The notes below the pieces were generated by a model. That model saw only the letters and a program-made list of their open reading frames with translations, made no database searches and was not told the DNA's origin. The position numbers were made by a program, and so were the translations under genes. DNA of 64,000 nt, taken from NCBI GenBank assembly GCA_029212415.1, contig JARGOF010000002.1:72877-136876 (forward strand), read 5' to 3'. This stretch comes from Rhizobiaceae bacterium (GTDB lineage: Bacteria; Pseudomonadota; Alphaproteobacteria; Rhizobiales; Rhizobiaceae). Positions 3,908 through 29,914 of the stretch are shown one piece after another. Each line of letters opens with the position of its first letter. Position 1 is the stretch's first letter.

Positions 3908-3947
3908 GGGCAAGTTAAAAGCTAGCTATATAGCTTTTAACTTGCCC
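3908..3947. promoter_or_regulatory. operator palindrome A upstream of enoyl-CoA hydratase gene
   Basis: GGGCAAGTTAAAAGCTA (3908-3924) and TAGCTTTTAACTTGCCC (3931-3947) are perfectly complementary 17-bp arms with a 6-base spacer. The inner 22 bp (3917-3938) is AAAAGCTA-N6-TAGCTTTT. The same element, with one or two changes, occurs at 7619-7640 and 29582-29603. Its centre is 76 bp upstream of the start at 4003. Symmetry, recurrence and position support a repressor or activator site. The binding protein is unknown; the GntR gene at 10740 is one candidate. Confidence 0.75.
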
Positions 3948-4002
3948 TCTTCCGTGCTTTGTGCAAATGAGAACAACATGTCTGAATGGGGAAGATTTGA
4001 GG

Positions 4003-4776
4003 ATGTCGCGGGTGCAGTTTGAAACACTTGAGGTCGTGGTCGATGATTATATCGCCCGCGTCACGATTAACCGGCCTCCGGTCAATGCGCAGAACAACAA
4101 GCTGCGTGAAGAGATGCAAATCGTCATGGACAGTCTCGGTGACCGCACGGATGTGCGCGCCATCGTGCTGACGGGGGAAGGCAGAGCCTTCTCGGCGGGC
4201 GCCGACCTGTCGGAGCGGCCAACGAAGGACCCGGGCAATTACACCGGGCATAATCGCCGGGTACGCGCGAGCTTCGATTGCCTGCTCGAATGCCCCAAGC
4301 CGATCATCGCAGCCGTTAATGGTCCGGCGATTGGCGCGGGCTGCGTGACGGCGCTTTGCTGTGATATTCTGGTGTTTTCGCAAAAGGGTTACCTGCAGAT
4401 GACAGAGGTCAATGTTGGCCTTGCAGGAGGGGTTGCACATGTGCGGCGCCATCTGGGCGAATCCGATGCGCGTATGATGCTGTTTACGGCGCGGCGGCTC
4501 TATGGGGCCGATCTGCTGCGCATGGGCGTCGCCTCTGCCTGCACGGCGCCCGAAGATCTGATGGAAACCGCCATGGGAATTGCCCGCGACATCGCCAAGG
4601 CCAGCCCCTCGGCGGTGCGCGCGGCCAAGGCTTCTTTCCAGATCACCGAGAATCTTTCGGTCTATGAGGGCTATCGTTTCGAACAGGGGCAGACCAAGGC
4701 GCTGTCGACCTCAGAGGATACAGCCGAGGCAATGGCGGCCTTTCGCGAGAAACGACCGCCTGAGTTCAAACCCTGA
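4003..4776 (+). CDS. enoyl-CoA hydratase/isomerase family protein
   Basis: 257 residues from the ATG at 4003, chosen because GGGGAAG lies 9 bases upstream; a GTG at 3961 would add 14 uncharacteristic residues. It is a crotonase fold, usual length. The first oxyanion-hole segment is GRAFSAGADLSE and the second PAIGAGCVTALCCDI. Family members hydrate, isomerise or hydrolyse CoA thioesters. The usual hydratase glutamate pair is not clear: the second site reads TEVNVGLAGGVAH, so the exact reaction is uncertain. It is first in a plus-strand run with the 2-hydroxyacid dehydrogenase, 38 bp downstream, and has operator A in front. Confidence 0.88.
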   Translation: MSRVQFETLEVVVDDYIARVTINRPPVNAQNNKLREEMQIVMDSLGDRTDVRAIVLTGEGRAFSAGADLSERPTKDPGNYTGHNRRVRASFDCLLECPKPIIAAVNGPAIGAGCVTALCCDILVFSQKGYLQMTEVNVGLAGGVAHVRRHLGESDARMMLFTARRLYGADLLRMGVASACTAPEDLMETAMGIARDIAKASPSAVRAAKASFQITENLSVYEGYRFEQGQTKALSTSEDTAEAMAAFREKRPPEFKP

Positions 4777-4814
4777 ATGGCCAAAAACATTCCGATGCGA
4801 TGAATGGAGGGAAC

Positions 4815-5738
4815 ATGGCAGAAAATCCAGCAGGTGAAGGGGTAGAACGTCGCCCCACAGTTGCCGTTCTGGGCTGGGTGCCTCCCGATATTCTGAAGGC
4901 GCTTGCCATGCGCTTTGATCTGCTTGAAAGCGATGGTCTGTCGGCCCTGAGCGCAGCGCAGCGCGCCGCCATCACCCATGGGTTGACCTCGGCCAAGAGC
5001 GGTTTGCCATTGGAGGCAATCAGCGAGCTGCCGGGCCTTGCGACCATCGCCAGCGTTGGCGCCGGAATGGAAAATTTTGATCTGCCGCAGCTTTTGGCGC
5101 GGAAGATAAATGTCCATCCCACAGCCAATGCCATGAGCGAAGATACCGCCGAGTTTGCCGTGGGTCTGGTGTTTGCGCTGTTGCGCCATATTGTCAACAA
5201 TGATGGCTTCGTGCGGCGCGGTGATTGGGCAGCGGGCCGCGCGCCACTGGGCTGGCGCATTTCCGAGCGCCGGGTCGGCATCGTCGGGCTTGGCCGGATC
5301 GGCGCCAGAGTGGCGCAGAAACTGGCCGCCCTGGGCTGTGACATTGCCTATACGGCGCGCAGCCGAAAGGATGTTGACTGGCGCTTCGAACCGGAGATCG
5401 CAGACCTTGCCCGGACGGTGGATGTTCTGGTGCTGTGTTGTTCAGGCGGTGAGGCGACACGCGGTCTCGTAGACGCACATGTGCTCGACCAGCTTGGCCC
5501 CAACGGCCATATCGTCAATGTTGCGCGCGGTACCGTGGTGGATGAGCCGGCTTTGCTCCAGGCGCTGGAACAGGGGATCATTGCGGGTGCGGCACTCGAT
5601 GTCTTCGAAAATGAACCGACACCCGACGCGAGGTTCCTGACGCTTTCAAACTGCATCCTCCAACCCCATACATCGGTTTTGACGCGTGAGAACCGGCGTG
5701 ATCTGATCGCCGAGCTGACCGGCTTGCTCGATCATTAA
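4815..5738 (+). CDS. D-isomer-specific 2-hydroxyacid dehydrogenase
   Basis: 307 residues from the ATG at 4815, which has GGAGGG at the proper distance; an ATG at 4800 does not. It is an NAD(P)-dependent D-2-hydroxyacid dehydrogenase with a Rossmann motif VGIVGLGRIGARVA (about residues 150-163). The catalytic Arg segment is NVARGTVVDEPALLQAL, the Glu segment ALDVFENEP and the His segment LQPHTSVLT. It most resembles glyoxylate/hydroxypyruvate reductase-like members. The substrate is unknown. It follows the enoyl-CoA hydratase gene and precedes the hydro-lyase genes, suggesting a hydroxy acid/oxo acid step in the same pathway. Confidence 0.92.
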   Translation: MAENPAGEGVERRPTVAVLGWVPPDILKALAMRFDLLESDGLSALSAAQRAAITHGLTSAKSGLPLEAISELPGLATIASVGAGMENFDLPQLLARKINVHPTANAMSEDTAEFAVGLVFALLRHIVNNDGFVRRGDWAAGRAPLGWRISERRVGIVGLGRIGARVAQKLAALGCDIAYTARSRKDVDWRFEPEIADLARTVDVLVLCCSGGEATRGLVDAHVLDQLGPNGHIVNVARGTVVDEPALLQALEQGIIAGAALDVFENEPTPDARFLTLSNCILQPHTSVLTRENRRDLIAELTGLLDH

Positions 5739-5743
5739 AACCT

Positions 5744-5765
5744 AAAAGCTATCTTATTGATATTT
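5744..5765. promoter_or_regulatory. degenerate copy of the AAAAGCTA operator
   Basis: AAAAGCTA at 5744-5751 matches the left half of the three strong operators exactly. After six bases the right half is TGATATTT, matching poorly. It lies in the 213-bp gap in front of the hydro-lyase alpha gene. It could be a weak half-site, or chance in AT-rich DNA. Confidence 0.3.
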
Positions 5766-5951: not shown

Positions 5952-6821
5952 ATGCCAATAACCGACGATATGATCCTCGAAGCCACCCAGCAGCTTTATT
6001 CCCGGGCACTCAGGAAAGTGCCCGAGGACACAAAGGCGGCTCTGGCCGAAGCAATGCGCAGGGAAACCAATGAAACCGCGCGCCGCACCCTCAACATGCA
6101 GTTGAAAAGCGCCGAACTTGCCGAGCGCAAGGACGCATTTGTCTGTTCCGACAGCGGTGTGCCGGTCTACTTCGTCAAGGTCGGCAGCAAGGCCGAACTG
6201 GCCTGTGACTTCAAGGCGTCCATCCGCAAGGGCTACGAAATTCTGGTGGAGACCATCGACCCGCCCCTGCTCAAGCATGTGACCAACCCTTTGACACTGG
6301 AGCGCGGCTATCACGGCAAGGACATGCCCATCGTTTCCTATGATTTCGAAAGCGGCGTCGATTATGTCGAGATGGTGTGTACGCCCAAGGCCCTGGGATC
6401 GGGGCGTTGGGCGGCGCTTGAACTCTTTACCTTTCCGACCCTTGAGCAAATCGAGACCTATATTCTCGATGTGGCGATCAAGGCCGGAGCGCAGCATTGT
6501 CCACCGGTGATCATGGGCGTGGGCATCGGCGGGACATTCGATCATTGCGCCGGCCTTGCCAAAAAACAGACCCTGCGCCCCATCGGTAAAAAGAACGACG
6601 ACCCGATGCTGGCGGCCATGGAAGAGCGGCTGACGGATGCCGTCAATGCGCTGGGTTTCGGTCCTATGGGAACGGGCGGTGACACAACAGCTCTGGCCGT
6701 TCATGTCGATTATTCCAGCGGGCACGGCTTTACCCCGGTTGCCGTGTGTTTCAACTGCTGGATCAACAGGCGGACAAGTGTCCGGATCTGGGGCGACGGG
6801 CGGATGGAGTGGGGCGAATGA
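5952..6821 (+). CDS. class I fumarase/tartrate-dehydratase-type hydro-lyase, alpha subunit
   Basis: 289 residues from the ATG at 5952, preceded by GAGGAAG; the 18 residues in front of it in the same frame are not family-like. It belongs to the Fe-S hydro-lyase alpha family (TtdA or FumA N-terminal). Visible cysteines in conserved settings are FVCSDSGVPVYF, MVCTPKALGSG and GTFDHCAGLAKKQ, as expected for a [4Fe-4S] cluster. The GVGIGGTFD loop is typical. Such enzymes dehydrate tartrate, malate, citramalate-like or related hydroxy acids. Its stop overlaps the beta-subunit start (ATGA at 6818), so the two are translated together. Confidence 0.92.
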   Translation: MPITDDMILEATQQLYSRALRKVPEDTKAALAEAMRRETNETARRTLNMQLKSAELAERKDAFVCSDSGVPVYFVKVGSKAELACDFKASIRKGYEILVETIDPPLLKHVTNPLTLERGYHGKDMPIVSYDFESGVDYVEMVCTPKALGSGRWAALELFTFPTLEQIETYILDVAIKAGAQHCPPVIMGVGIGGTFDHCAGLAKKQTLRPIGKKNDDPMLAAMEERLTDAVNALGFGPMGTGGDTTALAVHVDYSSGHGFTPVAVCFNCWINRRTSVRIWGDGRMEWGE

Positions 6822-7453
6822 CGGTCAGGGAACACGAGCTTGTGCTGCCGCTCACCGAGAGCGCAGTGCGCAGTCTTGCGGTCGGCGATACCGTCTTTCT
6901 CAGCGGTGAAATCTTCGCGACCGCGGGTCTTCCAACCCATGATCGCCTGCTGCGTTGCCTGGATGGAGACGAGGCGCTTCCCTTTGACATGAAGGGCGGC
7001 GCATTGTTTCACCTGGGCAGTCTCAACGAAGAAGCCGAGGATGGCTCGCATCACATCATCTACATGAACCCGACAACCAGCACGCGCTTCAATGGTCATA
7101 TGCCGCGTTTGATTGAAGGCCTCGGGCTGCGCGCCACCGGAGGCAAGGGTGGCCTGAGCGCTGAGAGCGCCGAGGCAATGACCCGTTTGGGATGCGTCTA
7201 TCTGTCATTCCTCGGCGGTGGCGCGCAGATTATCACGGCGGCCATACGCAAGGTCACGGGCATTGGATGGCCAGAGATGATTTCGCACTATCGCATCGCA
7301 CGCATTGAGGTCGAGCGGCTGGGCCCGCTGACCGTCGGCATCGACGCGCATGGAAACAGCATCTACGACCTGACCAATGCCAAGGCTCTGGAAAACCGCA
7401 GCGCCATTCTTGCCCGCATGAATGCCGCAAGAGCGGCGATCGGCAAGCCGTAA
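6818..7453 (+). CDS. class I fumarase/tartrate-dehydratase-type hydro-lyase, beta subunit
   Basis: 211 residues from the ATG overlapping the alpha stop. It is the C-terminal/beta domain of class I fumarases and TtdB, recognised from LAVGDTVFLSGEIFATAG, the PTHDR segment, the NPTTSTRFN loop and the GGKGGLS stretch before the conserved YLSFLGGGA. It completes the substrate pocket with the alpha subunit. Two-gene arrangement and lengths fit a tartrate/mesaconate/fumarate-type heteromer. The true substrate cannot be told from sequence. No terminator is visible before tctC, whose own operator lies 165 bp downstream. Confidence 0.92.
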   Translation: MTVREHELVLPLTESAVRSLAVGDTVFLSGEIFATAGLPTHDRLLRCLDGDEALPFDMKGGALFHLGSLNEEAEDGSHHIIYMNPTTSTRFNGHMPRLIEGLGLRATGGKGGLSAESAEAMTRLGCVYLSFLGGGAQIITAAIRKVTGIGWPEMISHYRIARIEVERLGPLTVGIDAHGNSIYDLTNAKALENRSAILARMNAARAAIGKP

Positions 7454-7618: not shown

Positions 7619-7640
7619 AAAAGCTATATAACTAGCTTTT
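7619..7640. promoter_or_regulatory. operator palindrome B upstream of tctC
   Basis: AAAAGCTA (7619-7626), TATAAC, TAGCTTTT (7633-7640). The 22-bp element differs from the reverse complement of operator A by one base and from operator C, read in the direction of transcription, by one base. Its centre is 70 bp upstream of the tctC start. The spacer TATAAC could itself be a -10 box, in which case a bound protein would block RNA polymerase. Confidence 0.78.
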
Positions 7641-7699
7641 CACCTGACCGGGGCAAAACGCTTCGGTATTCTGGAACAAGGCAGAGGGAGGATCACCGA

Positions 7700-8692
7700 A
7701 TGCCTACAATGAATCTGAAGACAATGGGTCGCATTTTTGCGGCGGGGGCCATTGGCGCGATTGCGCTTTTGAGTGCCAATATTGCATCGGCGCAGAATTT
7801 TCCGGAGCGTCCCATCACGCTGGTCGTTGGCTTTCCGCCAGGCGGCTCGACGGATGTGGTCGCGCGGATCCTGGGCAAGCACATGACGGAAACGCTGGGT
7901 CAGCCGGTGGTGGTCGAGAACCGTGCCGGGGCAGGCGGTACTGTGGGTATCGGCAGTGTCGCAAAGTCCGATCCCGATGGTTATACCCTTGGCGTCAGCG
8001 GCGTTGGAGCCTCCATTCTGATTGCCGCAATGGGCCGCGAAACCGGCTACGATATGGACAAGGAACTTGATGTCATTGGCGTGATGGGCACTTTGGGTCT
8101 GGTGATTGCCGGGCGCAATGGCCTGGACCCCAAGACGCTGCCCGAGCTGGTGGAATATGCCAAGGCCAATCCGGGCAAGCTGACCTACGGCAGCTCCGGT
8201 ATCGGCACGCCGGGACATCTGGCCATGGAATATCTCAAGAGCATTTCCGGCGCTGATCTTCTGCACATTCCCTACAAGGGAAACACGCCCTTGATGAATG
8301 ATGTTCTGGGCGGGCACGTGGATATTGCCATGCTGACAACGCCTGGCGCTGCCGAGCAGGTTCGCGCTGGCGGTATTCAGCCTTTCGCGGTGTCGTCGCC
8401 TGAGCGTTCGGCGCTGATGGAAGATGTTCCCACTGTTATGGAAAGTGGCCTTGAGGGCTATACGGCTACGCTCTGGAACCTGCTGGTTGCGCCCAAGGGC
8501 ACACCTGCGGATGTTCAGGCGAAACTGTCGGGCGCTCTGAATGCTGCCATGCAGGATCCTGAAGTGCTGAAGTCCTATGCGCAAAAAGGCCTGGCGCCGA
8601 CCATTACCACGCCGCAGGAGGCCACACAGTTTCTCGCAGATGAACGTGCCAAATGGGCAGGTGTCATTGAAGAAACAGGCATCAAGAAGTAG
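7700..8692 (+). CDS. TctC/Bug-family tripartite tricarboxylate transporter substrate-binding protein
   Basis: 330 residues from the ATG at 7700 with GAGGGAGG upstream; the reading frame extends further but crosses operator B. An N-terminal signal peptide (IFAAGAIGAIALLSANIASA) is followed by mature NFPERPITLVVGFPPGGSTD, the hallmark of the Bug family, with RILGKHMTETLGQPVVVENRAG. It is a periplasmic binding protein for a carboxylic acid and feeds the TctBA permease encoded downstream. Bug ligands vary widely (citrate, phthalates, nicotinate, amino acids), so the substrate is open. A strong terminator hairpin separates it from tctB. Confidence 0.95.
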   Translation: MPTMNLKTMGRIFAAGAIGAIALLSANIASAQNFPERPITLVVGFPPGGSTDVVARILGKHMTETLGQPVVVENRAGAGGTVGIGSVAKSDPDGYTLGVSGVGASILIAAMGRETGYDMDKELDVIGVMGTLGLVIAGRNGLDPKTLPELVEYAKANPGKLTYGSSGIGTPGHLAMEYLKSISGADLLHIPYKGNTPLMNDVLGGHVDIAMLTTPGAAEQVRAGGIQPFAVSSPERSALMEDVPTVMESGLEGYTATLWNLLVAPKGTPADVQAKLSGALNAAMQDPEVLKSYAQKGLAPTITTPQEATQFLADERAKWAGVIEETGIKK

Positions 8693-8752: not shown

Positions 8753-9193
8753 ATGATTACCCTCTCCTTGAGGTTGGTGGTTGCCACACTTCTGCTGGTA
8801 ATCGGCGTTGCCGCATTCATCATTGCCCTCGGCTACGATTTTGGAACCGCCTTTCAGATGGGGCCGGGCTATTTCCCGGTTGTTCTGTCCGGTCTTCTTG
8901 CCCTTTTGGCCTTCAGCGAGATCATATCCTCGCTCCTCCATCCTGAAGCAAGATCCGTGGAATGGCGCCCGATGCTGGCGATCCTCGCCGCCATCGCCGG
9001 CTTCGCCGTGGCGATGTTGCTGTTCGGAATGGTGCCGGCCTTCTTTGTCGTCGTCGGCCTGGCGGCCCTGTCGGAAAAACGTTACGGCTGGCTGCCGGCA
9101 CTCGTGCTGGCCTCAGTCACGTCCCTGGCGTCCTATCTGCTGTTTTCGCGTTTCCTCGGCATGTCCATGCCGCTCTTTCAGTGGGGACTGTGA
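8753..9193 (+). CDS. TctB-family tripartite tricarboxylate transporter small permease subunit
   Basis: 146 residues with four hydrophobic segments (about residues 5-27, 40-60, 75-105 and 112-135), the TctB pattern, with the conserved MGPGYFPVVLSGLLALLAF. It forms the small membrane subunit of the transporter with TctA. It overlaps or abuts tctA (stop 9191-9193, tctA start 9199), which implies translational coupling. Read-through of the 8701 terminator is needed unless there is a local promoter. Confidence 0.9.
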   Translation: MITLSLRLVVATLLLVIGVAAFIIALGYDFGTAFQMGPGYFPVVLSGLLALLAFSEIISSLLHPEARSVEWRPMLAILAAIAGFAVAMLLFGMVPAFFVVVGLAALSEKRYGWLPALVLASVTSLASYLLFSRFLGMSMPLFQWGL

Positions 9194-9198: not shown

Positions 9199-10716
9199 AT
9201 GTTTGAAAATATCCTTCTTGGTTTTGCAACGGCTGCCACACCTGAAAATCTGCTCTACTGTTTTATCGGCGTCTTTCTGGGCACCTTCATCGGCGTTCTG
9301 CCGGGACTGGGCTCGCTTGCGGCCATTTCGATGCTTCTGCCGCTGTCCTTCTATCTCGATCCTACGACGGCGCTCATCATGCTGGCCGGCATCTACTATG
9401 GCGGCGAATACGGCGGCTCCATCGCGTCGATCCTCTTGAATATTCCAGGCACACCGTCTGCCGCAATCACCTGCCTCGATGGCAATCCGATGGCCAAACA
9501 GGGGCGCGCCGGGGTTGCTCTGTTCGTCACCGCCATTGCGTCCTTCGTCGGCGGCTCGGTCGGCGTCGTGGCGCTGATGGCTTTCGGCCCGGCCATTGCC
9601 GTGATCGGTTTGAGCTTCGGTCCCGGTGACTATTTTGCACTCATGCTTTTGGGGCTCGTCGCTGCCGTAACGGTGGGCGGCGGATCGATTGTCAAAGGCC
9701 TCATCATGGTGGTGCTGGGCCTGCTGCTGGGCACGGTCGGCACCGATGTGACCTCGGGTGAATTCCGCTACACGTTCGGCTTTCTGGAGTTGCGTGATGG
9801 CGTCAGCCTCGTGGCGATCGCCATGGGTCTGTTCGGGATCGCCGAAGTCGTCAGTTCCATCAATGAAGCCGGAAAGCGCAAGATCACCGAAAAAGTCACC
9901 ATCAGAGGCATGCTTCCGACCTCCAGCGATATGAAGAAGACGGTCGGCCCGATGGCGCGCGGCAGTACCATTGGCGGATTTTTCGGCGCGCTCCCCGGCG
10001 CTGGAACTGTCATTGCAGCCTTTTTGGCCTATGCAACAGAGATCCGGCTTGCCAAAGACAAGTCGCGCTTTGGCAAAGGCGCCATCGAGGGCATTGCGGC
10101 CCCCGAATCGGCCAACAATGCGGCGGCGCAGACGGCCTTTATCCCGACCCTGACCATCGGCATTCCCGGCAGCCCCACCATGTCGATCATGCTCGGCGCC
10201 TTGATGATTCACGGGATCACGCCCGGGCCGCTGCTTGTTTCGGATCACCCGACGATTTTCTGGGGGCTGATCGCCAGCTTCTGGATCGGCAATCTGTTCC
10301 TGCTGGTTTTGAACATTCCGCTGATCGGCCTCTGGGTAAAGGTTCTGCAATTCCCCTACAAATACATCTATCCGGTGGTGATTGCATTGATCTGCATTGG
10401 CGTGTTCAGCATGCGGACAAGCGTCTTCGACGTCGGGCTCGTGCTGATTTTTGGTGCCATGGGCTATCTGTTCCAGCGCATCGGCTATTCCGCGGCGCCG
10501 CTGATCCTGGGTTTTGTTCTCGGCCCGATGCTGGAGGAAAACCTGCGCCGTGCGATGCTCATTGCCAGGGGGGATCCCTATCGCCTGATCTTCGATCCGC
10601 TGACCGGTTCAATCCTGTTTCTTTCGGCATTGCTGCTGGTCTGGGCCATATTCGGCGGGATGCGCAAAATGATCAAATCCCGGCAATTGACAAAAATGCC
10701 TGCCGGCGAAGCCTGA
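9199..10716 (+). CDS. TctA-family tripartite tricarboxylate transporter large permease subunit
   Basis: 505 residues from the ATG at 9199; a GTG at 9190 overlapping the tctB stop is equally possible. It is a polytopic inner-membrane protein of about 12 helices. TctA signatures are GTFIGVLPGLGSLAAISMLL, YYGGEYGGSIASILLNIPGT and the second-half repeat GALPGAGTVIAAFLAYATE with NNAAAQTAFIPTLTIGIPGS. It is a cation-coupled secondary transporter for the acid bound by TctC. It is convergent with the GntR gene 23 bp downstream. Confidence 0.95.
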   Translation: MFENILLGFATAATPENLLYCFIGVFLGTFIGVLPGLGSLAAISMLLPLSFYLDPTTALIMLAGIYYGGEYGGSIASILLNIPGTPSAAITCLDGNPMAKQGRAGVALFVTAIASFVGGSVGVVALMAFGPAIAVIGLSFGPGDYFALMLLGLVAAVTVGGGSIVKGLIMVVLGLLLGTVGTDVTSGEFRYTFGFLELRDGVSLVAIAMGLFGIAEVVSSINEAGKRKITEKVTIRGMLPTSSDMKKTVGPMARGSTIGGFFGALPGAGTVIAAFLAYATEIRLAKDKSRFGKGAIEGIAAPESANNAAAQTAFIPTLTIGIPGSPTMSIMLGALMIHGITPGPLLVSDHPTIFWGLIASFWIGNLFLLVLNIPLIGLWVKVLQFPYKYIYPVVIALICIGVFSMRTSVFDVGLVLIFGAMGYLFQRIGYSAAPLILGFVLGPMLEENLRRAMLIARGDPYRLIFDPLTGSILFLSALLLVWAIFGGMRKMIKSRQLTKMPAGEA

Positions 10717-10739: not shown

Positions 10740-11495
10740 TCAGGTCAGCAGCTTGATATCGACGCGCACCATGTCGCCCCGGTAGATACCGTTTGCAATC
10801 AGGGCGATCGTTCCGTCTTCGGCCACCGCGACGCGCTGCACATAGGCGATCGGATCGCCGAGCGGTATGCTCAGCAATTCGCTGATTTCCGGATCGGCCG
10901 AGCCGATGGTCAGGGTTTGTTGTGCATTGACCACTTTGAGGCCTGGAACGTCGGAGATCAGCCGCATCGAGGTTTTCCGGGTAAAATCGCTCTCGTCAAT
11001 TTTCGCGCAGATCCGTTCGTCGATATAGACATCGGCCAGCAGAAAAGCCTCGCCGTCGCGGCTATGGCGTCGCCTCAGATGCCTGTAGACGGGCGCCGGT
11101 TCGCCAACGTCAATGGACACGTCGGGCGGCGTGACGCCGCTTTCAACCGAAAGCACAGCAATCTTTGCGTTGTCGCGCGACATCAAGAGGCCGTTCCAGT
11201 CGGTCTGCACCTCGCACCACAAGTCACGGCGGTTGCGTTTGCGAACGAATGTCCCCTTGGCGCGAAACCGCTCGATCAGGCCCTCTTCAGCCAGAAGGCC
11301 CAGGGCCTGACGGATCGTCATGTTTGCAACACCGCATTCGTTCGCCAGTTCAACAACGGTGGGAATGCGCGAGTCGATCGGCCAGGCGCCCGTCTCGATG
11401 CGCCGCCTGAACAGCGCGGCAAGCTGCAGATAGCGCGCCACGGAGCTCTTTCGCAGAGCCGTTGCTGTCTGGGTGTCGGGACCGGTTTCTTGCAT
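10740..11495 (-). CDS. GntR-family transcriptional regulator with UTRA ligand domain
   Basis: 251 residues from the ATG at 11495; an in-frame TTG at 11546 would add 17 residues. The N-terminal winged HTH (about residues 20-80) contains IPTVVELANECGVANMTIRQ and ALGLLAEEGLIERFRAKGTFV. The C-terminal 150 residues form a chorismate-lyase-like UTRA domain (YRHLRRRHSRDGEAFLLADV and IPLGDPIAYVQRVA), placing it in the HutC subfamily. It lies tail to tail with tctA and is the nearest regulator to operators A and B. Its own upstream region contains GCTAGCTA (11558-11565), shared with operator A, so control of the catabolic block and of itself is plausible but unproven. Confidence 0.92.
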   Translation of the reverse strand: MQETGPDTQTATALRKSSVARYLQLAALFRRRIETGAWPIDSRIPTVVELANECGVANMTIRQALGLLAEEGLIERFRAKGTFVRKRNRRDLWCEVQTDWNGLLMSRDNAKIAVLSVESGVTPPDVSIDVGEPAPVYRHLRRRHSRDGEAFLLADVYIDERICAKIDESDFTRKTSMRLISDVPGLKVVNAQQTLTIGSADPEISELLSIPLGDPIAYVQRVAVAEDGTIALIANGIYRGDMVRVDIKLLT

Positions 11496-11680
11496 GCACG
11501 AGTTCCACTTTTGCAAAGACAGAAGCACTCCAGTGTTAGAACGCAAACGCTGGTTGTGCTAGCTAATAATATCTTTGCAGCCGATTGTCATCAAATGGGT
11601 TCATGGAATGACAATGCGTTGCGGTGGATTTACACCGGACAGATTGCCCTCGTACCAATCCGAATGGAACTTCAAAGTGT

Positions 11681-12748
11681 CTACAGCTGGCCATAGAGTG
11701 CAACCAGTTCGACCTGACTGTTCACACTGGTCTTTTCATAAATCACTTTTAGACGCTGGCGGATGCTTGTTGCCTTCAGGCTCATGAGATCGGCAATCAT
11801 GGCCGGTGTTTTGCCCGAAGACAGAAGGTCAACGGTGCTGATTTCCGAAGCCGAAAGCGCATAGGTTTCCCTCAAATGGAGGTGTTTCAATGCTCCGATA
11901 CTGGTGCATTCGGTGCGGATGGCGCAGGCTTTGAAAGCCATGAAAAAGTGCCGCAGACTGGGTGGAATTTGAATGACCAGAACATGGGTTGCTTTCGAGC
12001 CCTCGTTGAACTGATAGGCTTTGCTCAGTGACATGCCAGGCTCACCTGTCAAAACGGTCCTGAAGTCCGCGTTCAGACTGTCGCTGATCTCTTGCGGCAG
12101 CAATGCAGAAAGCCGATCCTGTGTTTTGATTGTTCCCTGCCTGTCGATGGTGAAACATTGCTTGCCATCTGCATCAAAGACAAAAACGTCTGAATCGGTT
12201 TTCTTGAAAAATTCGGAGAATTCGAAAATGCGCTGATGGGCGATTTCGAAAGCGCGTTTTACAGCCGATTCAAACATTGGCTGAATGGCTTCAATCATCG
12301 CGATGTCGTGCTGCGTCAACGGCGGATGGTCATTGCCGAAATGCACTGTGAGCGGCCAATAACCATTGGGGGTCATGATGCGTATTGTACAGACATTGCC
12401 AAAATCAAGCGGCCTCAAAAAATTTCTATAGAAAGGCATTTCTGCCTTTTTCGCCCGATCGGGAAAGACATCATCATCGGTCGCGTAGCCCCGTTTTATC
12501 ATCAATTCCAGAAGGCTTTCACGCGGGTCTGTGAGGTTCCATCCGGCTGAAAGATATTCCGCCAGACCTTGTTTCATCGCCTTCGTGCCCGACATCCACA
12601 GGCCACGACAATGGGGATTGGTAGGTGGCAAAAGCGCCCCTCTTGCGCCCAGCAGATCGACAACATCCTGGCAGACATCATCCCAATATTGCGCGCCGTG
12701 GATCGCCTTATCCAGATTATCCTGTAATTTTCCCCGTAGATCTTCCAT
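11681..12748 (-). CDS. LuxR-type HTH transcriptional regulator
   Basis: 355 residues from the ATG at 12748, with GGGAAG upstream; a TTG at 12805 would add 19 residues. The C-terminal 65 residues are a LuxR/GerE HTH: LSASEISTVDLLSSGKTPAM and IADLMSLKATSIRQRLKVIYEKT. The region ahead of it looks PAS/GAF-like (FVFDADGKQCFTIDRQGTI around residue 190), but I cannot name a domain with confidence. There is no response-regulator receiver domain. It is divergent from the giant secreted protein gene at 13108 and is therefore a candidate regulator of that locus. Confidence 0.85.
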   Translation of the reverse strand: MEDLRGKLQDNLDKAIHGAQYWDDVCQDVVDLLGARGALLPPTNPHCRGLWMSGTKAMKQGLAEYLSAGWNLTDPRESLLELMIKRGYATDDDVFPDRAKKAEMPFYRNFLRPLDFGNVCTIRIMTPNGYWPLTVHFGNDHPPLTQHDIAMIEAIQPMFESAVKRAFEIAHQRIFEFSEFFKKTDSDVFVFDADGKQCFTIDRQGTIKTQDRLSALLPQEISDSLNADFRTVLTGEPGMSLSKAYQFNEGSKATHVLVIQIPPSLRHFFMAFKACAIRTECTSIGALKHLHLRETYALSASEISTVDLLSSGKTPAMIADLMSLKATSIRQRLKVIYEKTSVNSQVELVALYGQL

Positions 12749-18708: not shown

Positions 18709-18711
18709 AGG

Positions 18712-18729: not shown

Positions 18730-18800
18730 TCTGCCAGCCCGCATCCGTTGTGGGTTGGCGGGATCAAATGTTTCACACTGAACCTTAAGGGCGCTGGGCC

Positions 18801-20033: not shown

Positions 20034-20277
20034 GACATTCTGCTCTTGATACCGGCGATTTGACCCAGGCAATCCTGGTTTCAGGTCATAACATCGTTGC
20101 TGGAAACAATGTCATGACCGCCTCTCTGTTTGGCCTGCTGCCCCGTCGGCAAACCGTTTCACACTTTTCGGGAAGCGGTAAAGGCAGATTGCGTGCCGTG
20201 CGGCTTTTGATTGATAGGCACAAATGGGCACGCCGCTGGCAGCGGCAACGAAGCGTGATCAGCGGCCTGTCGGAAAT

Positions 20278-21426: not shown

Positions 21427-21559
21427 TGAGCGCACTCTTTCAGGGGACTGATTGACGAGATTTGACCGATCCAATCGTGCAAGTCCCGATTGCGGGTGGC
21501 CTTGAACACGCGAGCCCCACGGCAGGTCAGGAAGGGTATCGATGCAGGATGACGCTGGC

Positions 21560-23449: not shown

Positions 23450-23475
23450 AACAACGCTCCGATCGTTGGCGGGCG

Positions 23476-24474
23476 TTAGTTCAAGGACGCTTCGTGCTTT
23501 TTGTTATCTTCGGTCCACATGTCGCGCTCTTCGAAAAAGCGCACTGCAGCCGGATGATAGGGGACCGTATTGGTCGGCAGTGAAAGCAGCTCCTGTTTGG
23601 CGGCGCGCATCGGAGGGTAGTCCTTGGTGAGTTGCGGCAGAGAGTCGTATAGCGACGCCAGAATGGCGGTGGCATCCTCATCAGAAAGTGACGCACTGGT
23701 GGTCAGATACACATCATAGGCTCCGACCGTGACCGGCTCGGTCACTTCCGGCATACGCGCGCTGGGCGCGACGGTTAACAGGTACATGCCCGGTAGAATG
23801 CTGTCGATATTCTCGTCCGTTGCGCCTTCACCCGTGATCGACAGGTAGCGAATGCCTCCGGGGATGGTGGCGTGCGCTTGCTGCGTCAGCGGAATGCCAA
23901 CGGCGATCCCGGTCGCATCCAGCGTACCTTCGGTAAGCCCGTCCATGCCTTGTTTTAGACCGGCAACTGTCACCGGTTTGACGTCTTCCAGAGACAGGCC
24001 GCCTGCCTGAAGAATCGCACGGTTCGCCAGACCGAGAGACGCGATTGCGGAATATTTTGTGACCGCGCGGCTTCCTTTCAGATCCGCCACATCTGTAAAT
24101 CCGGAGTTCGCTCGTACGGCAAGGCCCAGACGCAGAGGAAAAAGCCGCGCCAGAACGCGCATGTCTTTATTGGCCTCATTGCCGAAGTCGCCGCGATACA
24201 TGCCGCCGACATCAAGGGCGGAATTCAAACCGATGGAGACCTCTCCTGATTCGATCAATGGAATATAGACAGATGAACCGGAAAAGGGCTGAACGGTGAC
24301 TTGCCGGTTCAAGCTCTCCTGCAGCGCGGCGGCGATCCCGCTGCCGATGGTGTAATAGAGTGAGCCCTGCGGGTTGGTTCCAAGGGTGATGCGCGCCTGC
24401 GCCGAAGCCAAGGTGCAAAACCCGAATACTGCGGCCATCGCGATCGCCGTTCTGGCAAAATTCCGTTTGATCAT
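23476..24474 (-). CDS. TAXI-family TRAP transporter solute-binding protein
   Basis: 332 residues from an ATG with GGGAGAAG upstream. The signal peptide is AIAMAAVFGFCTLASA. The mature protein opens with RITLGTNPQGSLYYTIGSGI, the TAXI hallmark of a Gly-rich first loop with a paired Tyr, and has IGLNSALDVGGMYRGDFGNE. The C-terminal segment (DEDATAILASLYDSLPQLT) also fits. It delivers the substrate to the fused permease. The gene is divergent from a LysR gene at 24594, with TGCAATATATATGCA between them as a likely operator. Confidence 0.93.
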   Translation of the reverse strand: MIKRNFARTAIAMAAVFGFCTLASAQARITLGTNPQGSLYYTIGSGIAAALQESLNRQVTVQPFSGSSVYIPLIESGEVSIGLNSALDVGGMYRGDFGNEANKDMRVLARLFPLRLGLAVRANSGFTDVADLKGSRAVTKYSAIASLGLANRAILQAGGLSLEDVKPVTVAGLKQGMDGLTEGTLDATGIAVGIPLTQQAHATIPGGIRYLSITGEGATDENIDSILPGMYLLTVAPSARMPEVTEPVTVGAYDVYLTTSASLSDEDATAILASLYDSLPQLTKDYPPMRAAKQELLSLPTNTVPYHPAAVRFFEERDMWTEDNKKHEASLN

Positions 24475-24560
24475 TCTCTTCTCCCTAAGTCAGAGCGCAT
24501 CTTTTTGGCGCTTCATCAGAAAAGATAACATGGGCAGAATTCGATTTTGCTGAAATGATG

Positions 24561-24575
24561 TGCAATATATATGCA
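24561..24575. promoter_or_regulatory. candidate LysR site between TAXI operon and LysR gene
   Basis: TGCAATATATATGCA is a near-palindrome (TGCA at both ends) centred about 25 bp upstream of the LysR start, in the 119-bp divergent interval. LysR proteins typically bind T-N11-A palindromes in such positions. Spacing here is slightly longer, so this is a suggestion only. Confidence 0.4.
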
Positions 24576-24593
24576 GTTGCTTTATGAATAGAT

Positions 24594-25493
24594 ATGGCTG
24601 CATTGAACCGTTTGACACTTCGCCAACTACAAGCCGTACAGGCCGTTTATGAGGCTGGACGCGTTTCAGCCGCTGCAGAGCGCTTGAACATCAGTCAATC
24701 CGCGGCCAGTGTCCTTCTAGGTCAGGCTGAGGAATCCCTGGGTGCGCGGCTGTTTGACAGAACGACGCGATCGCTTGCCCCGACGAAACTGGCTGAGCAA
24801 ATCATCGGTCTGGTTTCGCGTATTCTCGGTGACATCGATACACTCGGCACCGTCGCGGAAGATATGCTTGGGTTGCAGACAGGACGCGTTCGCCTTGCCG
24901 CGACGCCGGCAACCGGCATTGCCCTGTTGCCGCACACGGTTCGGCGGTTCAAATCGGCCTATCCTCATATCTTCATCGGAATGAACGACTGTGCTCCAGA
25001 TCAGTTTTTTTCCAGTCTGCGTGAAGAGGATATTGATTTTGGACTGGGTGTACCGCCACCGGACACCGGGGAATTTCTCTATCAAACCATCCATGACGAC
25101 CCCTTGTACCTGCTGTGTCACGACGATCACCGACTGTCGGCGTATAATGCGGTCCCCTGGGCTGAGCTTGACGGCGAGCCGATTATCATTTCGCGTCGCA
25201 AATATGGTGTGCGCGAGCAGGTGCTGACAGCCATCCGGAACGCCGGCGGAAATCCGAATGTCGTCAACGAGGTTGGATTTCTTTTCAGCGCCGAATGGAT
25301 GGTCGCCTGTGGCATGGGTCTGTGCATTTACCCTTCACGGCTGGCCAAAACTGTAACAGACCGCTCTGTTCGGTTGATCCCGCTCACAGATCCGGTCATC
25401 TCCCGCAAAATTGCCATTGTCTACAAACGCGACCGGTCCATATCACCACCGGCGGCCATGCTGGTCAAAATGCTGGTGGAAGATCTTTCCTGA
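24594..25493 (+). CDS. LysR-family transcriptional regulator
   Basis: 299 residues. N-terminal HTH: LTLRQLQAVQAVYEAGRVSA then AAERLNISQSAASVLLGQAE, with LGARLFDRTTRSLAPT. The effector domain ends near LVEDLS. Divergent from the TAXI-TRAP/FAD-monooxygenase genes, it most likely controls them. The long effector domain with LLPHTVRRFKSAYPHI is standard. The inducer is probably the transported compound (inference from position). Confidence 0.92.
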   Translation: MAALNRLTLRQLQAVQAVYEAGRVSAAAERLNISQSAASVLLGQAEESLGARLFDRTTRSLAPTKLAEQIIGLVSRILGDIDTLGTVAEDMLGLQTGRVRLAATPATGIALLPHTVRRFKSAYPHIFIGMNDCAPDQFFSSLREEDIDFGLGVPPPDTGEFLYQTIHDDPLYLLCHDDHRLSAYNAVPWAELDGEPIIISRRKYGVREQVLTAIRNAGGNPNVVNEVGFLFSAEWMVACGMGLCIYPSRLAKTVTDRSVRLIPLTDPVISRKIAIVYKRDRSISPPAAMLVKMLVEDLS

Positions 25494-25564
25494 GAAGGAT
25501 TTGCACAGGTCTGCCGGATATCGAGACGTGGCCAACAAATGGTCCGCATCAAAAACAATCGGGC

Positions 25565-26164
25565 CTATTCCGGGCGCATCATCGCGAAGACCTCTTCGGT
25601 AATCGCATAATCCATATATCCAAGCCGGGCCAGCGGGCGGATGCGCGCCATGTCGAGCATGCCGTCAACGATCACATCGTCACTGATGTAGATGCCAACG
25701 ACCTCTCCGAAAATAACCTCCGAGCGGACCTTCGTGCCGTCGCGTGCGGTGAGCGGCACCACCCGGTTCAAAATGCATTCCAGGGCCACCGGTGAGGCCG
25801 CCACCCGCGGCACAGCAACGTTTCGGCATGGCGCTTTTTCAAGCCCGGCCAGTTCGAACTCATCGACGGCCTGATCAACCGCAGCCGAAGACGTGTTGAG
25901 TGCGTCTTTCAGGTCGGCGGTTGCCATATTGACCACGAATTCGCCCGTCGCCTCGATGTTCGTCTGGCTGTCCTTGCGGCCAGCGGACGAAAACATCACA
26001 AAGGGCGGGATGCCGGCGATGGCGTTGAAAAAACTGTAGGGCGCCAGATTGGCAACGCCCTGATCGGAAAGGCTGGAAATCCAGCCAATCGGGCGTGGCA
26101 CCACCAGCGATGTCCAGGGATTATGCGCAAGGCCGTGTGGCTCGCTTCGCGGATCGTAAAACAA
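25565..26164 (-). CDS. flavin reductase-like FMN-binding protein (DIM6/NTAB type)
   Basis: 199 residues from a TTG at 26164; AAGGAG lies at good distance and the opening FYDPRSEPHGLAHNP is the family N-terminus. The motif RPIGWISSLSDQGVANLAPY and SFFNAIAGIPPFVMFSSAGR marks the DIM6/NTAB flavin reductase-like family. It may supply reduced flavin to a monooxygenase or carry out a flavin-dependent step itself. Last gene of the five-gene minus-strand operon, 10 bp after the CMD-like gene. Confidence 0.88.
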   Translation of the reverse strand: MFYDPRSEPHGLAHNPWTSLVVPRPIGWISSLSDQGVANLAPYSFFNAIAGIPPFVMFSSAGRKDSQTNIEATGEFVVNMATADLKDALNTSSAAVDQAVDEFELAGLEKAPCRNVAVPRVAASPVALECILNRVVPLTARDGTKVRSEVIFGEVVGIYISDDVIVDGMLDMARIRPLARLGYMDYAITEEVFAMMRPE

Positions 26165-26174
26165 GGGTCTCTCC

Positions 26175-26786
26175 TTACTCGGCCGCAGCGGAAGGAATCG
26201 CGGATGGAAGCGAGGTTCGCGTGTCGGGCGTGCTGTTCAATTCCGAAGGTATATGGTCCGGCAAGGGAATGCCATGGGCATTGAGGGTCATTGCCACCAT
26301 GGAATAATATCCGACAAGTGCGGTTAATTCGACCACGCCCAGAACGCCCCACCGAGCGAGCACGGCCTGATAGGCGGCGTCGCCGATACGGCCGTTTTCA
26401 AGCAGCTGACGGCTGAACTCGTAGACCTCTCGCTGGTCCTCGACTGTGAATGCGGGCAGATCGCCGACCCGCAATGCCTCGATGATGTCCATGTCCAGCC
26501 CGGCTGTGCGGGCTTCGCCGGCGTGGATTGTCCATTCCAGTTCGCTGTTCCAGTGGCGGGCAGTGACCAGTATGGCCAATTCATTGAGCACGGTGGGCAG
26601 GCACGTCTCGTAGCGCAGCACCTGACCAAGCGCCTGCCAGCGGTCCGCCAGGGAGGGGTTGTGAAGCGCCGCACGCAAGGGTCCGACCAGAGTCCGGCGG
26701 GGTCCGCTGACGATCTTGTCGAACACGGCCCGCTGTGCGGCATTCATATCCTGTGGACCGGGAAGGGGAATACGCGGCTCACTCAC
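26175..26786 (-). CDS. carboxymuconolactone decarboxylase-like protein
   Basis: 203 residues from a GTG whose last bases form GTGA with the CoA-transferase stop. The CMD fold is recognised from LRYETCLPTVLNELAILVTA followed by RHWNSELEWTIHAGEARTAG and VVELTALVGYYSMVAMTLNA. There is no CxxC pair, so it is not an AhpD-type peroxidase. True PcaC enzymes decarboxylate carboxymuconolactone; this longer relative has no assigned substrate. Tight coupling to the CoA-transferase gene places it in the same pathway. Confidence 0.88.
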   Translation of the reverse strand: MSEPRIPLPGPQDMNAAQRAVFDKIVSGPRRTLVGPLRAALHNPSLADRWQALGQVLRYETCLPTVLNELAILVTARHWNSELEWTIHAGEARTAGLDMDIIEALRVGDLPAFTVEDQREVYEFSRQLLENGRIGDAAYQAVLARWGVLGVVELTALVGYYSMVAMTLNAHGIPLPDHIPSELNSTPDTRTSLPSAIPSAAAE

Positions 26787-27979
26787 TGGCTTTTCTCCCC
26801 GGTTAGTCCAAGCATGCGCATGACCTCGTCTGTGTGTTCGCCCAAAAGCGGTGGCGCGTGATCAAATGACAGTGGCGAACGCTCAAAGCGCATCGGACTG
26901 ATGACAGAGGGAACCGTGCCCGACAAAGGGTGTGGCAGGTCGCGCAGCATCTGCCGATGTTGCACTTGCGGATCGGCAAACACCATCGGAACGGTATTGA
27001 TTGGCCCACAGGGGACCTTTTGCTCGCCGAAGATTTCAATCCACGCGCTCAGGTTCTTTTCGCCAAGCCGTGCGCAGATCAGCGGATGCAAGGTGTCAAG
27101 GTTTTCCACGCGCGCGTGGTTGGTGGCATAACGAGGATCCGCGGCAAGTTCGGGCTGCCCGATGGCTTCGGAAAATCGGACAAATTGCTCATCGTTGCCG
27201 ACGGCCAATACGATATGCCCGTCGCGGACAGGAAAAACGTCCTGCGGCTGGATGTTGGGGTGTTTGTTGCCCCGACGCACCGGTGTCGTTCCGGACACAA
27301 GGTGATTCATGGCCTGATTGGCCAGCATGGCCGTCGCCACATCCAGCATGGCGACGTCGACGGTATCACCCTTGCCGCTCTGGCTTCGTTCCGCCAAGGC
27401 GGCCAGCACGGCGATCACCGAATACATTCCGGTCATGATGTCGATGATCGGCACGCCAACCTTCTGCGGCCCTCCTGCGGGCTCACCGTCCGGCGCGCCC
27501 GTGATGCTCATCAGACCGCCCATGGCCTGTATCATGAAGTCATAGGCGACATCCTTGGCCCGTGGTCCATCCTGACCGAAACCGGTGATCGAGCAGTAGA
27601 TCAGGTTGGGGTTGTCTTTCCGCAGATCCTCGGCGCCCAGACCGTAACGTTCCAGTGTGCCGACCTTGAAATTCTCCAGCAGAATATCGGACCGGGCGGC
27701 CAGCGCCCTGATCGTCGCCTGACCCTCGGGCGAGGCGAGATCGATCTCGACCGATTTTTTGCCGCGGTTGACCGACAGATAGTAGCCCGACTCCTCGGTA
27801 TCATTGCCATCGGCATCCTTCAGGTAGGGCGGCCCCCAGCGGCGTGTATCGTCGCCGACACCGGCTCTTTCAACCTTGATCACCTCGGCGCCGAGATCGG
27901 CGAGTATCTGTCCGGCCCAGGGGCCCGCCATGATGCGCGACAGGTCGAGTATGCGAATGTGTTTCAGGGGTCCGGTCAT
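26783..27979 (-). CDS. type III CoA-transferase (CaiB/BaiF family)
   Basis: 398 residues from the ATG at 27979, overlapping the GST stop; the longer frame upstream is out of family. Signatures are the N-terminal LKHIRILDLSRIMAGPWAGQ, LGAEVIKVER, the catalytic Asp segment YCSITGFGQDGP and the later GNKHPNIQPQDVFPVRDG. The enzyme moves CoA between a donor thioester and a free acid, activating an organic acid for breakdown. Substrates of this family (formyl-CoA, succinyl-CoA, citramalyl, mesaconyl) cannot be inferred from sequence. Confidence 0.93.
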   Translation of the reverse strand: MTGPLKHIRILDLSRIMAGPWAGQILADLGAEVIKVERAGVGDDTRRWGPPYLKDADGNDTEESGYYLSVNRGKKSVEIDLASPEGQATIRALAARSDILLENFKVGTLERYGLGAEDLRKDNPNLIYCSITGFGQDGPRAKDVAYDFMIQAMGGLMSITGAPDGEPAGGPQKVGVPIIDIMTGMYSVIAVLAALAERSQSGKGDTVDVAMLDVATAMLANQAMNHLVSGTTPVRRGNKHPNIQPQDVFPVRDGHIVLAVGNDEQFVRFSEAIGQPELAADPRYATNHARVENLDTLHPLICARLGEKNLSAWIEIFGEQKVPCGPINTVPMVFADPQVQHRQMLRDLPHPLSGTVPSVISPMRFERSPLSFDHAPPLLGEHTDEVMRMLGLTGEKSQ

Positions 27980-28650
27980 CAGCTGGTCTCGTATTTGAAT
28001 GCAATGGTCTTGTCGGCAGCATTGGCAGGGCCCGTGTCGTCGTTGACAATGGCGGTGGCCGCGACACAGGGGCGGGTGGTGATCGCCTTGTACCAGGCAG
28101 CCAACCCCGGGAGCGCGGTCCGCCAGCCGCAATCGGCATAACGGAAGTCCAGTTGTCCAAGGGCGCAGACCACTGCGATATGGCCAAGGCCGAAGGGCAC
28201 CCGTGAAAGATCGGCGCTCTCATTTTCCAGTGTTTCAAGCGCCGCGCGGGTCTTTGTCTCGAAGGCCGCGAGGATGATTGGGTCGGCGTTTTCCCCGCGC
28301 CCCCGTTCTGTCCGCCACAGCAGCAGAATATCCGTCAATCCGTCACCCAGAGCCTGCCAGCGCAGGTGCTTGAACCGCGTCGACAGCGCCAGCGGCAACA
28401 GATCCTCGCGCCTGGACAGGGTGATGAGATATTCGCAGATGACACGGGAATCAAAGAGCTTCACGCCATCTGCCGTGATCAGCACCGGTATCTTTCCAAG
28501 CGGATTGTCCCTGAGTATGTCCGGGTTCGGCGGTGCGGCGAAAATGGCAACGGACCTGATGCGTTCGACCTGATGCGTCAGGTTGCATTCTTCCAGAACA
28601 ATATTGACCTTGCGCACAAATGGCGACCTTGGAGACCAGTGCAGCTTCAT
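27979..28650 (-). CDS. glutathione S-transferase family protein
   Basis: 223 residues from the ATG at 28650, which overlaps the hydrolase stop. The N-terminal thioredoxin-fold begins MKLHWSPRSPFVRKVNIVLE, with the Ser-Pro-Phe site and the GSH-binding NPLGKIPVLITADGVKLFDS. An all-alpha C-terminal domain follows. In catabolic operons GSTs often act as isomerases or in thiol removal; here a maleylpyruvate-isomerase-like role is only a guess. Coupled by overlaps on both sides. Confidence 0.9.
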   Translation of the reverse strand: MKLHWSPRSPFVRKVNIVLEECNLTHQVERIRSVAIFAAPPNPDILRDNPLGKIPVLITADGVKLFDSRVICEYLITLSRREDLLPLALSTRFKHLRWQALGDGLTDILLLWRTERGRGENADPIILAAFETKTRAALETLENESADLSRVPFGLGHIAVVCALGQLDFRYADCGWRTALPGLAAWYKAITTRPCVAATAIVNDDTGPANAADKTIAFKYETS

Positions 28651-29489
28651 GTCTTGACCCTTGCGATCTTGGCGCAATTTTTGTCCAGAAAGGCGCACAG
28701 AACAGCGGTAAAGGCTTGCGGTTGTTCGAAACAGGGCACATGACCAGCCTGCGCGATGATCTGCAGGGTTGCACCGCTGATCACGGGTTTGAGCTTTGCA
28801 GCCATGCTCTCGGGCATCGCACCATCCTCGGCGCCGGCAACAAGCAGTGTCGGACAGGCAATGCGCGGCAGTTCGTCGGCAAAATCATAGTCCATCAGTG
28901 CTCTGGCGCAGGCCGCGAAGCCATCAAAGGGGGTCGCCGCAATCATCTCGATGAGACGCGCGCGGGTAGGCCCAGCGGTTCCATCCGTCAGCCAGCGATT
29001 GGCGGTCTCGGAGGCAAAGGTCTGCATGCCCGATGCCTTCGCTCCTTCGATCCTCTCGGCCCAATTGGCCGCACCACCGGGTGCCGTTTTGGCCTGCCCA
29101 TCGCACAGGACGAGTGCTTCGAAACGGTTGGCTGCACGTCTGTGGGCCGCAAGCCCTGTCGGCACGCCCATCGACAGGCCGACAAAAGTGGCGCTTTCCA
29201 CCGATGCGGCGTCCATGACAGCGAGCAGATCGTCGCCGAGGTCATCGAAGTTGATGGGCGTTTGCGGCGGGCCGGATCGGCCATGGCCTGCCTGATCGTA
29301 GCGCAGGATACGGAAACGGCCAGCCAGGGCGGCCACCTGCGCATCCCAGACCGTCAGATCTGTTGCAAGCGAATTGCTGAAGACGATCCATGGCGCATCG
29401 GCGCATTCGGGCGTCACGGTTTGCGCATAGAGGTCGTAATTCTTGCGCGCGACGCGAAGAATTCTGGGGTCGCCAGCGCCTATTGTCAT
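28647..29489 (-). CDS. alpha/beta hydrolase (3-oxoadipate enol-lactonase-like)
   Basis: 280 residues. Nucleophile elbow GLSMGVPTG (Ser), the preceding RYDQAGHGRSGPP, an acid in LLVAGAEDGAMPE and His in AQAGHVPCFEQP give a complete triad. It resembles PcaD enol-lactonases and other meta/ortho-cleavage hydrolases. First gene of the operon hydrolase-GST-CoA-transferase-CMD-flavin reductase; operator C and a candidate promoter lie about 100 bp upstream. The pairing with a CMD-like protein echoes the beta-ketoadipate pathway but no other genes of that pathway are present. Confidence 0.9.
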   Translation of the reverse strand: MTIGAGDPRILRVARKNYDLYAQTVTPECADAPWIVFSNSLATDLTVWDAQVAALAGRFRILRYDQAGHGRSGPPQTPINFDDLGDDLLAVMDAASVESATFVGLSMGVPTGLAAHRRAANRFEALVLCDGQAKTAPGGAANWAERIEGAKASGMQTFASETANRWLTDGTAGPTRARLIEMIAATPFDGFAACARALMDYDFADELPRIACPTLLVAGAEDGAMPESMAAKLKPVISGATLQIIAQAGHVPCFEQPQAFTAVLCAFLDKNCAKIARVKT

Positions 29490-29914
29490 CCTTGCCGCCT
29501 TACGTCCTTGTGTAATCCATATCCCATCGGGAATCTCTCCTCGTATCGGCCAGATTCATGCTTTGATGATGTTCACCGATTAAAAGCTAGTTATATAGCC
29601 TTTCGGAAAATGCGCAATTGGGATTTTCGGCAAAGGGCATTGTTTGCCCCATCTGCTGATGGTTCTGCGCGCTTGCCCGGATCAGGGCGGAGCATTTCAC
29701 CCAGGGTCTCTGATCCCGAGCGCGATAGTAAAATTGCGGAAAGATGTCCAGAATTCCCAGGGCTTCATGCTGACCTTGTTGAGCTTTCCGGATGCGAAAA
29801 CTGCGCGAACCCGTGTATCAGGCTCCAATGCATCAACTGCGCGCGCAGCGCTAAATCAGGTGCATCCGATGCTCCCCAGACCAGTCCTTCCCAAACGCCG
29901 CGAAGAATGGCAAA
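29490..29914. other. 425-bp region between the hydrolase operon and the thioesterase gene
   Basis: Contains operator C and a likely promoter for the minus-strand operon near 29590-29617. From about 29620 to 29914 I see no convincing gene: frames are open on the plus strand but have no family features, and no RNA structure or T-run is apparent. Confidence 0.5.
29582..29617 (-). promoter_or_regulatory. operator palindrome C and overlapping promoter of the CoA-transferase operon
   Basis: AAAAGCTA (29582-29589), GTTATA, TAGCCTTT (29596-29603) is the third copy of the 22-bp palindrome. Read on the minus strand, the spacer gives TATAAC as a -10 box. GCGCAA at 29612-29617 (TTGCGC on the minus strand) gives a -35 box with a 16-bp spacer. 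A protein on the palindrome would therefore cover the -10 region. The centre is about 103 bp upstream of the hydrolase start. Confidence 0.72.

Follow-up and report, generated by a model that had tools for sequence, protein, structure and literature searches.

A 64,000-nucleotide stretch of the genome of a Rhizobiaceae bacterium (assembly GCA_029212415.1, contig JARGOF010000002.1), hereafter the window, contains three near-identical 22-bp palindromes of the form AAAAGCTA-N6-TAGCTTTT. They lie in front of three operons, encoding an enoyl-CoA hydratase (ECH) and a D-isomer 2-hydroxyacid dehydrogenase (2HADH); the TctCBA transport proteins; and a hydrolase, a glutathione S-transferase (GST), a CoA-transferase, a CMD-like protein and a flavin reductase (Table 1). 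A diverged copy precedes the fumAB genes, and a gene for a GntR/UTRA regulator is found in the same region. An earlier note made from the letters of this DNA had proposed that one regulator controls the three operons and that the GntR protein was the closest candidate, and our comparison of related loci agrees: it is highly probable that the palindromes act as operators of this GntR/UTRA protein before all three operons, with the copy at 5744 probably being a weaker one.

The three palindromes, which had been described as differing by no more than two bases and lying 70-105 bp upstream of gene starts, proved real on both counts. Operators 1 and 2 match the pattern without mismatch and operator 3 with one, the pairwise differences in one orientation are 1, 1 and 2 bases, and no fourth match occurs in the window at up to three mismatches. 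Because shuffled windows (n = 100) contain 0.07 matches on average and none of the 100 reaches three, a chance origin is excluded. From the operator centre to the likely start codon the distance is about 75 bp for ECH (ATG at 4003), about 70 bp for tctC (ATG at 7700) and about 103 bp for the hydrolase gene (29489, minus strand). A refined matrix (motif WWARGYYA-N6-TRRCYTWW), to which operators 1-3 contributed and the copy at 5744 did not, scores the three at 25.0-26.7 and the copy at 17.7. The degenerate copy noticed earlier before the Fe-S hydro-lyase genes is thus present and, given this score, probably a weaker operator; a third half-site beside it scored 0.68 and is unsupported. Apart from these four sites, no window position scores 10 or more. 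All three operators contain CTATAT on the strand of the downstream gene, which could serve as a -10 element.

Gene identities were assigned with Pfam and NCBIfam, and the open reading frame (ORF) calls and the families of relatives are our own. The gene content given in the earlier note agrees with these assignments, apart from the CMD-like protein, which has no match in either collection and none of note in the PDB and whose name was taken from a Paracoccus homologue annotated so (74% identical).

Table 1. Predicted operators and genes of the putative regulon, in window coordinates
Feature	Position	Strand	Remark
Predicted operator 1	3917..3938		before ECH-2HADH; core of longer palindrome, ~3908-3947
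ECH, enoyl-CoA hydratase family protein	4003..4776	+
2HADH, D-isomer 2-hydroxyacid dehydrogenase family protein	4800..5738	+
Probable weaker operator	5744..5765		before fumAB; refined-matrix score 17.7
FumA, class I fumarase-type Fe-S hydro-lyase alpha subunit	5952..6821	+	ATG read
FumB, Fe-S hydro-lyase beta subunit	6818..7453	+
Predicted operator 2	7619..7640		before tctCBA
TctC periplasmic binding protein	7700..8692	+
TctB	8753..9193	+
TctA	9199..10716	+
GntR/HutC-type regulator (helix-turn-helix + UTRA)	10740..11546	-	Pfam GntR, UTRA; longest ORF, true start may lie downstream (ORF caller: 11441)
Flavin reductase family protein	25565..26164	-
CMD-like protein	26175..26786	-	name from relative's annotation
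CaiB/BaiF (family III) CoA-transferase	26783..27979	-	best NCBIfam model succinate-glutarate CoA-transferase, below cut-off
Glutathione S-transferase (GST)	27979..28617	-
PcaD-like (3-oxoadipate enol-lactonase-like) alpha/beta hydrolase	28647..29489	-	below family cut-off
Predicted operator 3	29582..29603		before hydrolase-GST-CoA-transferase-CMD-flavin reductase operon

Copies scattered over the genome, which the earlier note had named as a sign against a regulon, were not found: outside the window sites, the 5.84-Mb genome (85 contigs) holds no further place within two mismatches of the 22-bp palindrome. Eight further places have exactly three mismatches, and one of them (G000:C6:80408) keeps GCTA-N6-TAGC. 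The reversed pattern used as a control is commoner, with 93 matches at up to three mismatches in this genome, 18 at up to two in the genus and three at up to one in the family; since reading backwards yields another palindrome, one that this genome contains more often, the shuffles are the better null. A looser learned pattern gave five matches in the genome (the three operators and two others) against six for the reversed control, so the two extra matches may be due to chance. In the genus (eight genomes including our own, up to two mismatches), one other genome had a single two-mismatch match, and in the family (394 genomes including our own, up to one mismatch) matches were present in 10 other genomes. 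Because such strict-pattern scans miss drifted sites, they were replaced by an orthologue-guided search.

GntR relatives with 56% (G006, same genus) and 53% (G035, other genus) identity each lie in one compact cluster with FumA, FumB, CMD, GST, hydrolase, CoA-transferase, flavin reductase, ECH, TctC, TctA and 2HADH; the ECH of G035 has an identity of only 39%, and TctB was matched in G006. A GntR alignment of three sequences, used to scan the contigs of 84,980 species, yielded 156 confirmed relatives, the best 80 of which were kept. Most of these 80 loci are from Alphaproteobacteria by record title, and at least two (Granulosicoccus and Peristeroidobacter) are from what we take to be other classes. 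Among the 80, the core enzymes were found in 65 (CoA-transferase), 66 (CMD), 65 (GST) and 58 (ECH) loci, followed by TctC (43), the PcaD-like hydrolase (42), a second hydrolase (38), flavin reductase (32), 2HADH (29), FumB (26), a FadJ-like enzyme (26), FumA (25), PcaF (20), two acyl-CoA dehydrogenases (20 each), TctA and TctB (14 each), PcaHG (13) and an amidohydrolase (12), the added families being identified from one example each. Since relatives keep these genes around a GntR relative with the same operator before them, both a single regulator for the three operons and the GntR protein as the likely one gain support.

The operators are conserved upstream of orthologous operons. A matrix built solely from the three window sites gave, at a score of at least 12, 58 matches in the 80 loci, 57 of them intergenic, while non-coding sequence makes up 11% of bases by our ORF calls; 30 column-permuted palindromic matrices gave a mean of 2.0 matches and 11 at most. 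When the matrix was refined on half of the loci and tested on the other half (20 permutations each), 83 matches, all intergenic, were found in 33 of 40 loci in one test (permuted mean 2.15, largest 8) and 93 matches, 92 intergenic, in 36 of 40 loci in the other (permuted mean 2.2, largest 6). The refined matrix detected 175 separate intergenic sites in 70 of the 80 loci; 150 of them lie no more than 350 bp upstream of a cluster gene. When intergenic positions of these loci were drawn at random, 10069 of 22045 (46%) did so. A site was present in 67 of 70 loci with CoA-transferase, CMD, GST or ECH versus three of 10 loci without (Fisher 4e-6, uncorrected for kinship). Among the loci with both cluster and sites is L061, from Roseibium marinum DSM 17023, which has four. 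Two annotated plasmids outside the training set were also scanned. On that of Paracoccus marcusii, all five matches (score of at least 8) precede cluster operons: two lie before a protocatechuate dioxygenase gene and one each between the FadJ-like and hydrolase genes, before gntR and before ECH. On that of Roseomonas haemaphysalidis, four of six do so (before a TctC gene, before GST, in the hydrolase/fumarase gap and before a second TctC gene); the remaining two are 8-bp shifts of the first two. By these sequence comparisons, the regulator is found near its predicted targets, with putative operators before them, in several lineages, as in a pathway-specific local regulon, which is a known kind of system.

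The 26-kb span in the window is a compact cluster whose halves are separated, between the flavin reductase gene and gntR, by about 14 kb (roughly 11.7-25.5 kb). In reverse complement its order is hydrolase-GST-CoA-transferase-CMD-flavin reductase, gntR, tctABC, fumBA, 2HADH and ECH, the same as in L055 (Rhodobacterales bacterium HKCCE4037), where the cluster occupies about 13 kb and includes a second CoA-transferase and a PcaHG-family ORF. The window proteins are 59-88% identical to those of L055 and 33-80% to those of the same-genus G006 (12 proteins; at the cut-off of this comparison TctB was unmatched in G006), which suggests that the cluster may have been acquired from a Rhodobacterales-like donor. 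Besides a 374-aa ORF that matches nothing in Pfam, the intervening stretch encodes a VWA protein of 1866 aa, a LysR regulator, an SH3 protein, a TRAP permease, and proteins of the FAD-binding and NMT1_3 binding kinds. Because TRAP genes from 11 of the 80 loci group in the same family as the one here, the stretch may not be unrelated to the cluster. No flanking repeats of at least 24 bp were detected around 11681-25500, nor any operator within it (best refined-matrix score 7.0). Direct repeats with a 15-bp period are present at 18406-18500, near the 3' end of the VWA protein gene.

Several observations weigh against the assignment of the palindromes to the GntR protein as repressor sites. Upstream of the window gntR (11400-11720), the best refined-matrix score is 0.9 and there is no full operator; the GCTAGCTA that the earlier note had pointed to there is a half-site only, and autoregulation through it was rejected, yet in relatives gntR is preceded by 20 of the 175 sites. 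When the sequence was scanned for sigma-70 promoters, none adjoined the operators, so that promoter occlusion is a possibility only. At a score of 12, the window-only matrix finds sites in only 34 of the 80 loci, higher coverage needing the refined matrix. The 80 loci, the best of 156, are also mutually related, for which the Fisher tests were not corrected, and they were described with our own ORF and family calls. In the negative set (12 stretches, 205 kb, taken from around more distant GntR proteins and from the window flanks), each half's test gave three matches where permuted matrices predict fewer than one. Finally, L074, L125 and L130 have the cluster without a site, and L056, L101 and L107 have a site without any of the four core genes.

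Some of these points would also fit a GntR protein that is an activator, or that controls part of the set, the remaining sites then being left over from a cluster that was once contiguous: the window gntR is without its own site, the copy at 5744 is degraded, and the cluster is split and looks acquired. However, the three operators are nearly identical and keep promoter-like spacing, and each kind of operon is again found with sites before it in relatives, so we regard this alternative as rather improbable. That the IclR gene at 30390, the other candidate of the earlier note, or a LysR gene reads the palindromes is much less probable still. In its favour, the IclR gene is only 0.8 kb away from operator 3, aromatic catabolism is often under the control of IclR proteins, and the Roseomonas plasmid stretch has an annotated IclR gene next to ABC transporter genes, at 15 kb from gntR. 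However, at an E-value of 1e-12 no relative of it was detected in the 80 loci, the two plasmids and four stretches of G006 and G035 (86 in total), and at 1e-5 two of the 86 (L106 and L130) have one, only 29 and 25% identical; relatives of either LysR protein were found in two of the 86 each at 1e-12. There is also no operator near the IclR gene (best score 6.0 in 29900-34000). Equally slight is the chance that the palindromes are RNA hairpins (terminators or leaders) alike by coincidence. Operator 1 does lie within a hairpin of 18 pairs (z -7.6, with -37.2 kcal/mol for the stretch), but among the window's four sites it alone has long arms, a search for terminator-like sites gave none at operators 1-3, and sites in relatives lie upstream of cluster genes, several of them between divergent genes.

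The longer palindrome centred on operator 1 has perfect arms of 17 bp (about 3908-3947) and may perhaps have an extra role in RNA. Extended dyad arms were rejected as a general feature, flank complementarity over the 175 sites being near chance beyond 3 bp.

With the palindromes read as operators of the GntR protein, what we infer about binding, dimerisation, repression, effector and substrate is as follows. A GntR dimer would bind WWARGYYA-N6-TRRCYTWW before ECH-2HADH, tctCBA and the hydrolase operon and, more weakly, before fumAB, and would probably repress these operons until a compound of the pathway binds the UTRA domain, HutC-type proteins being usually ligand-released repressors; occlusion of the promoter is our guess for how it would do so. 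The tripartite tricarboxylate (TTT) transporter would import one acid, and a lactone or ester would be hydrolysed, the acid activated as a CoA thioester and carried towards central metabolism.

The regulator scores above the Pfam cut-offs for GntR (PF00392, 54.9 bits) and UTRA (PF07702, 71.6 bits), the winged helix and effector domain also found in the HutC, NagR/YvoA, DasR and PhnF repressors, and its PDB matches include NagR/YvoA and DasR. The best NCBIfam model is HutC (TIGR02018), with 97.4 bits against a cut-off of 220; a histidine utilisation repressor equivalent to HutC was rejected on this score and on the neighbours, which are not hut genes. Palindromic operators upstream of targets, as predicted here, are another feature in common with these repressors. 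One study gives NyGTMTAKACNy as the operator consensus of the HutC subfamily, mostly with GT and AC 4 nt apart, and FarR, NagQ and SdhR as exceptions (PMC4494728). In contrast to that consensus, the predicted operator lacks GT-N4-AC: at matrix position 8, which is G in the consensus, the refined palindromised matrix has A at 0.96 and G at 0.04, and the GY and RC pairs are 10 nt apart. Just before E-L-A of the recognition region, at a position that may correspond to the Arg/Asn specificity position in that study, the window protein has V; among 64 aligned members from site-bearing loci this residue is mostly D (30), E (18) or K (13).

The whole regulon is likely to serve one compound, and several genes speak for an aromatic-derived acid as its candidate substrate. 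In some relatives PcaHG-like dioxygenase genes are preceded by sites, the window hydrolase is PcaD-like (below cut-off), two relatives scanned have thiolases that pass the PcaF cut-off, and a tannase/feruloyl-esterase family gene is present in five of the 80 loci (one example scanned), with sites before it in L102 and L127. TctC is related to a terephthalate-binding protein, matching chains of it, of BugD and of Bug27 in the PDB; BugD and the terephthalate-binding protein are binding proteins of TTT transporters. The PcaD-like hydrolase (42 loci) and the amidohydrolase (12 loci), whose best NCBIfam match is 4-sulfomuconolactone hydrolase, far below cut-off, are never found together, and 26 loci have neither (Fisher 4.5e-5, uncorrected for kinship), as would be expected if either opens a lactone. 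Against an aromatic acid, a ring-cleavage gene is absent from the cluster in the window itself, only 13 of 80 loci have PcaHG, and L057 carries the tricarballylate genes TcuA and TcuB, both above cut-off, beside ECH, so that an aliphatic tricarboxylate is also possible.

The PcaD-like hydrolase, CMD-like protein and CoA-transferase of the window, and the PcaHG-like and PcaF genes of some relatives, resemble the beta-ketoadipate (pca) pathway. That pathway usually has PcaIJ, PcaB and other regulator types, its complete set being PcaGH, B, C, D, IJ and F, of which the window cluster has the PcaD-like and CMD-like proteins only. The window cluster differs in its CaiB/BaiF-type CoA-transferase and GntR/UTRA regulator and has GST, flavin reductase, Fe-S hydro-lyase, 2HADH, ECH and TTT uptake in addition. 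No PcaB was present among the example proteins scanned, no search having been aimed at it.

It is tentatively suggested that these loci represent a widespread, undescribed and mainly alphaproteobacterial pathway for aromatic (poly)carboxylates under a HutC-type regulator with a new operator grammar. Intradiol cleavage, where PcaHG-like genes occur, would be followed by lactone opening by the PcaD-like hydrolase or the amidohydrolase, activation by the CaiB/BaiF CoA-transferase and beta-oxidation to the PcaF-type thiolase. The grammar would consist of half-sites 14 bp apart, start to start, with a third adjoining direct-repeat half-site in at most about one in eight sites; such a half-site was seen in 21 of 350 flanks (6%; two flanks per site) versus 0.3% of shuffled flanks. 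No description of this regulon was recognised among titles and abstract openings, RegPrecise and subscription papers lying outside the search.

The regulon ties GST, Fe-S hydro-lyase, flavin reductase and CoA-transferase, which have no obvious link, into one probably inducible pathway common to many Alphaproteobacteria, and the matrix may be used to find the remaining pathway genes and, via them, the substrate. With a predicted operator that departs from the subfamily rule, this HutC-type regulator may also help the study of how GntR proteins choose DNA.

Some other loci may hold related systems. Two of the three matches in the negative stretches are in L043 (3449 and 4230), beside a 38%-identical GntR relative, and this locus may share the motif as a related regulon. 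L091, L094, L101, L103, L107, L110 and L115 have GntR relatives (55-58% identical) in a largely common neighbourhood without the core enzymes; in L101 and L107, sites resembling AAAGGC-N10-GCCTTT precede gntR, and such loci perhaps represent a paralogous regulon with a shifted motif. In the window, outside the regulon, an RPE65-family gene lies beside HxlR and IclR regulator genes (30390-33773).

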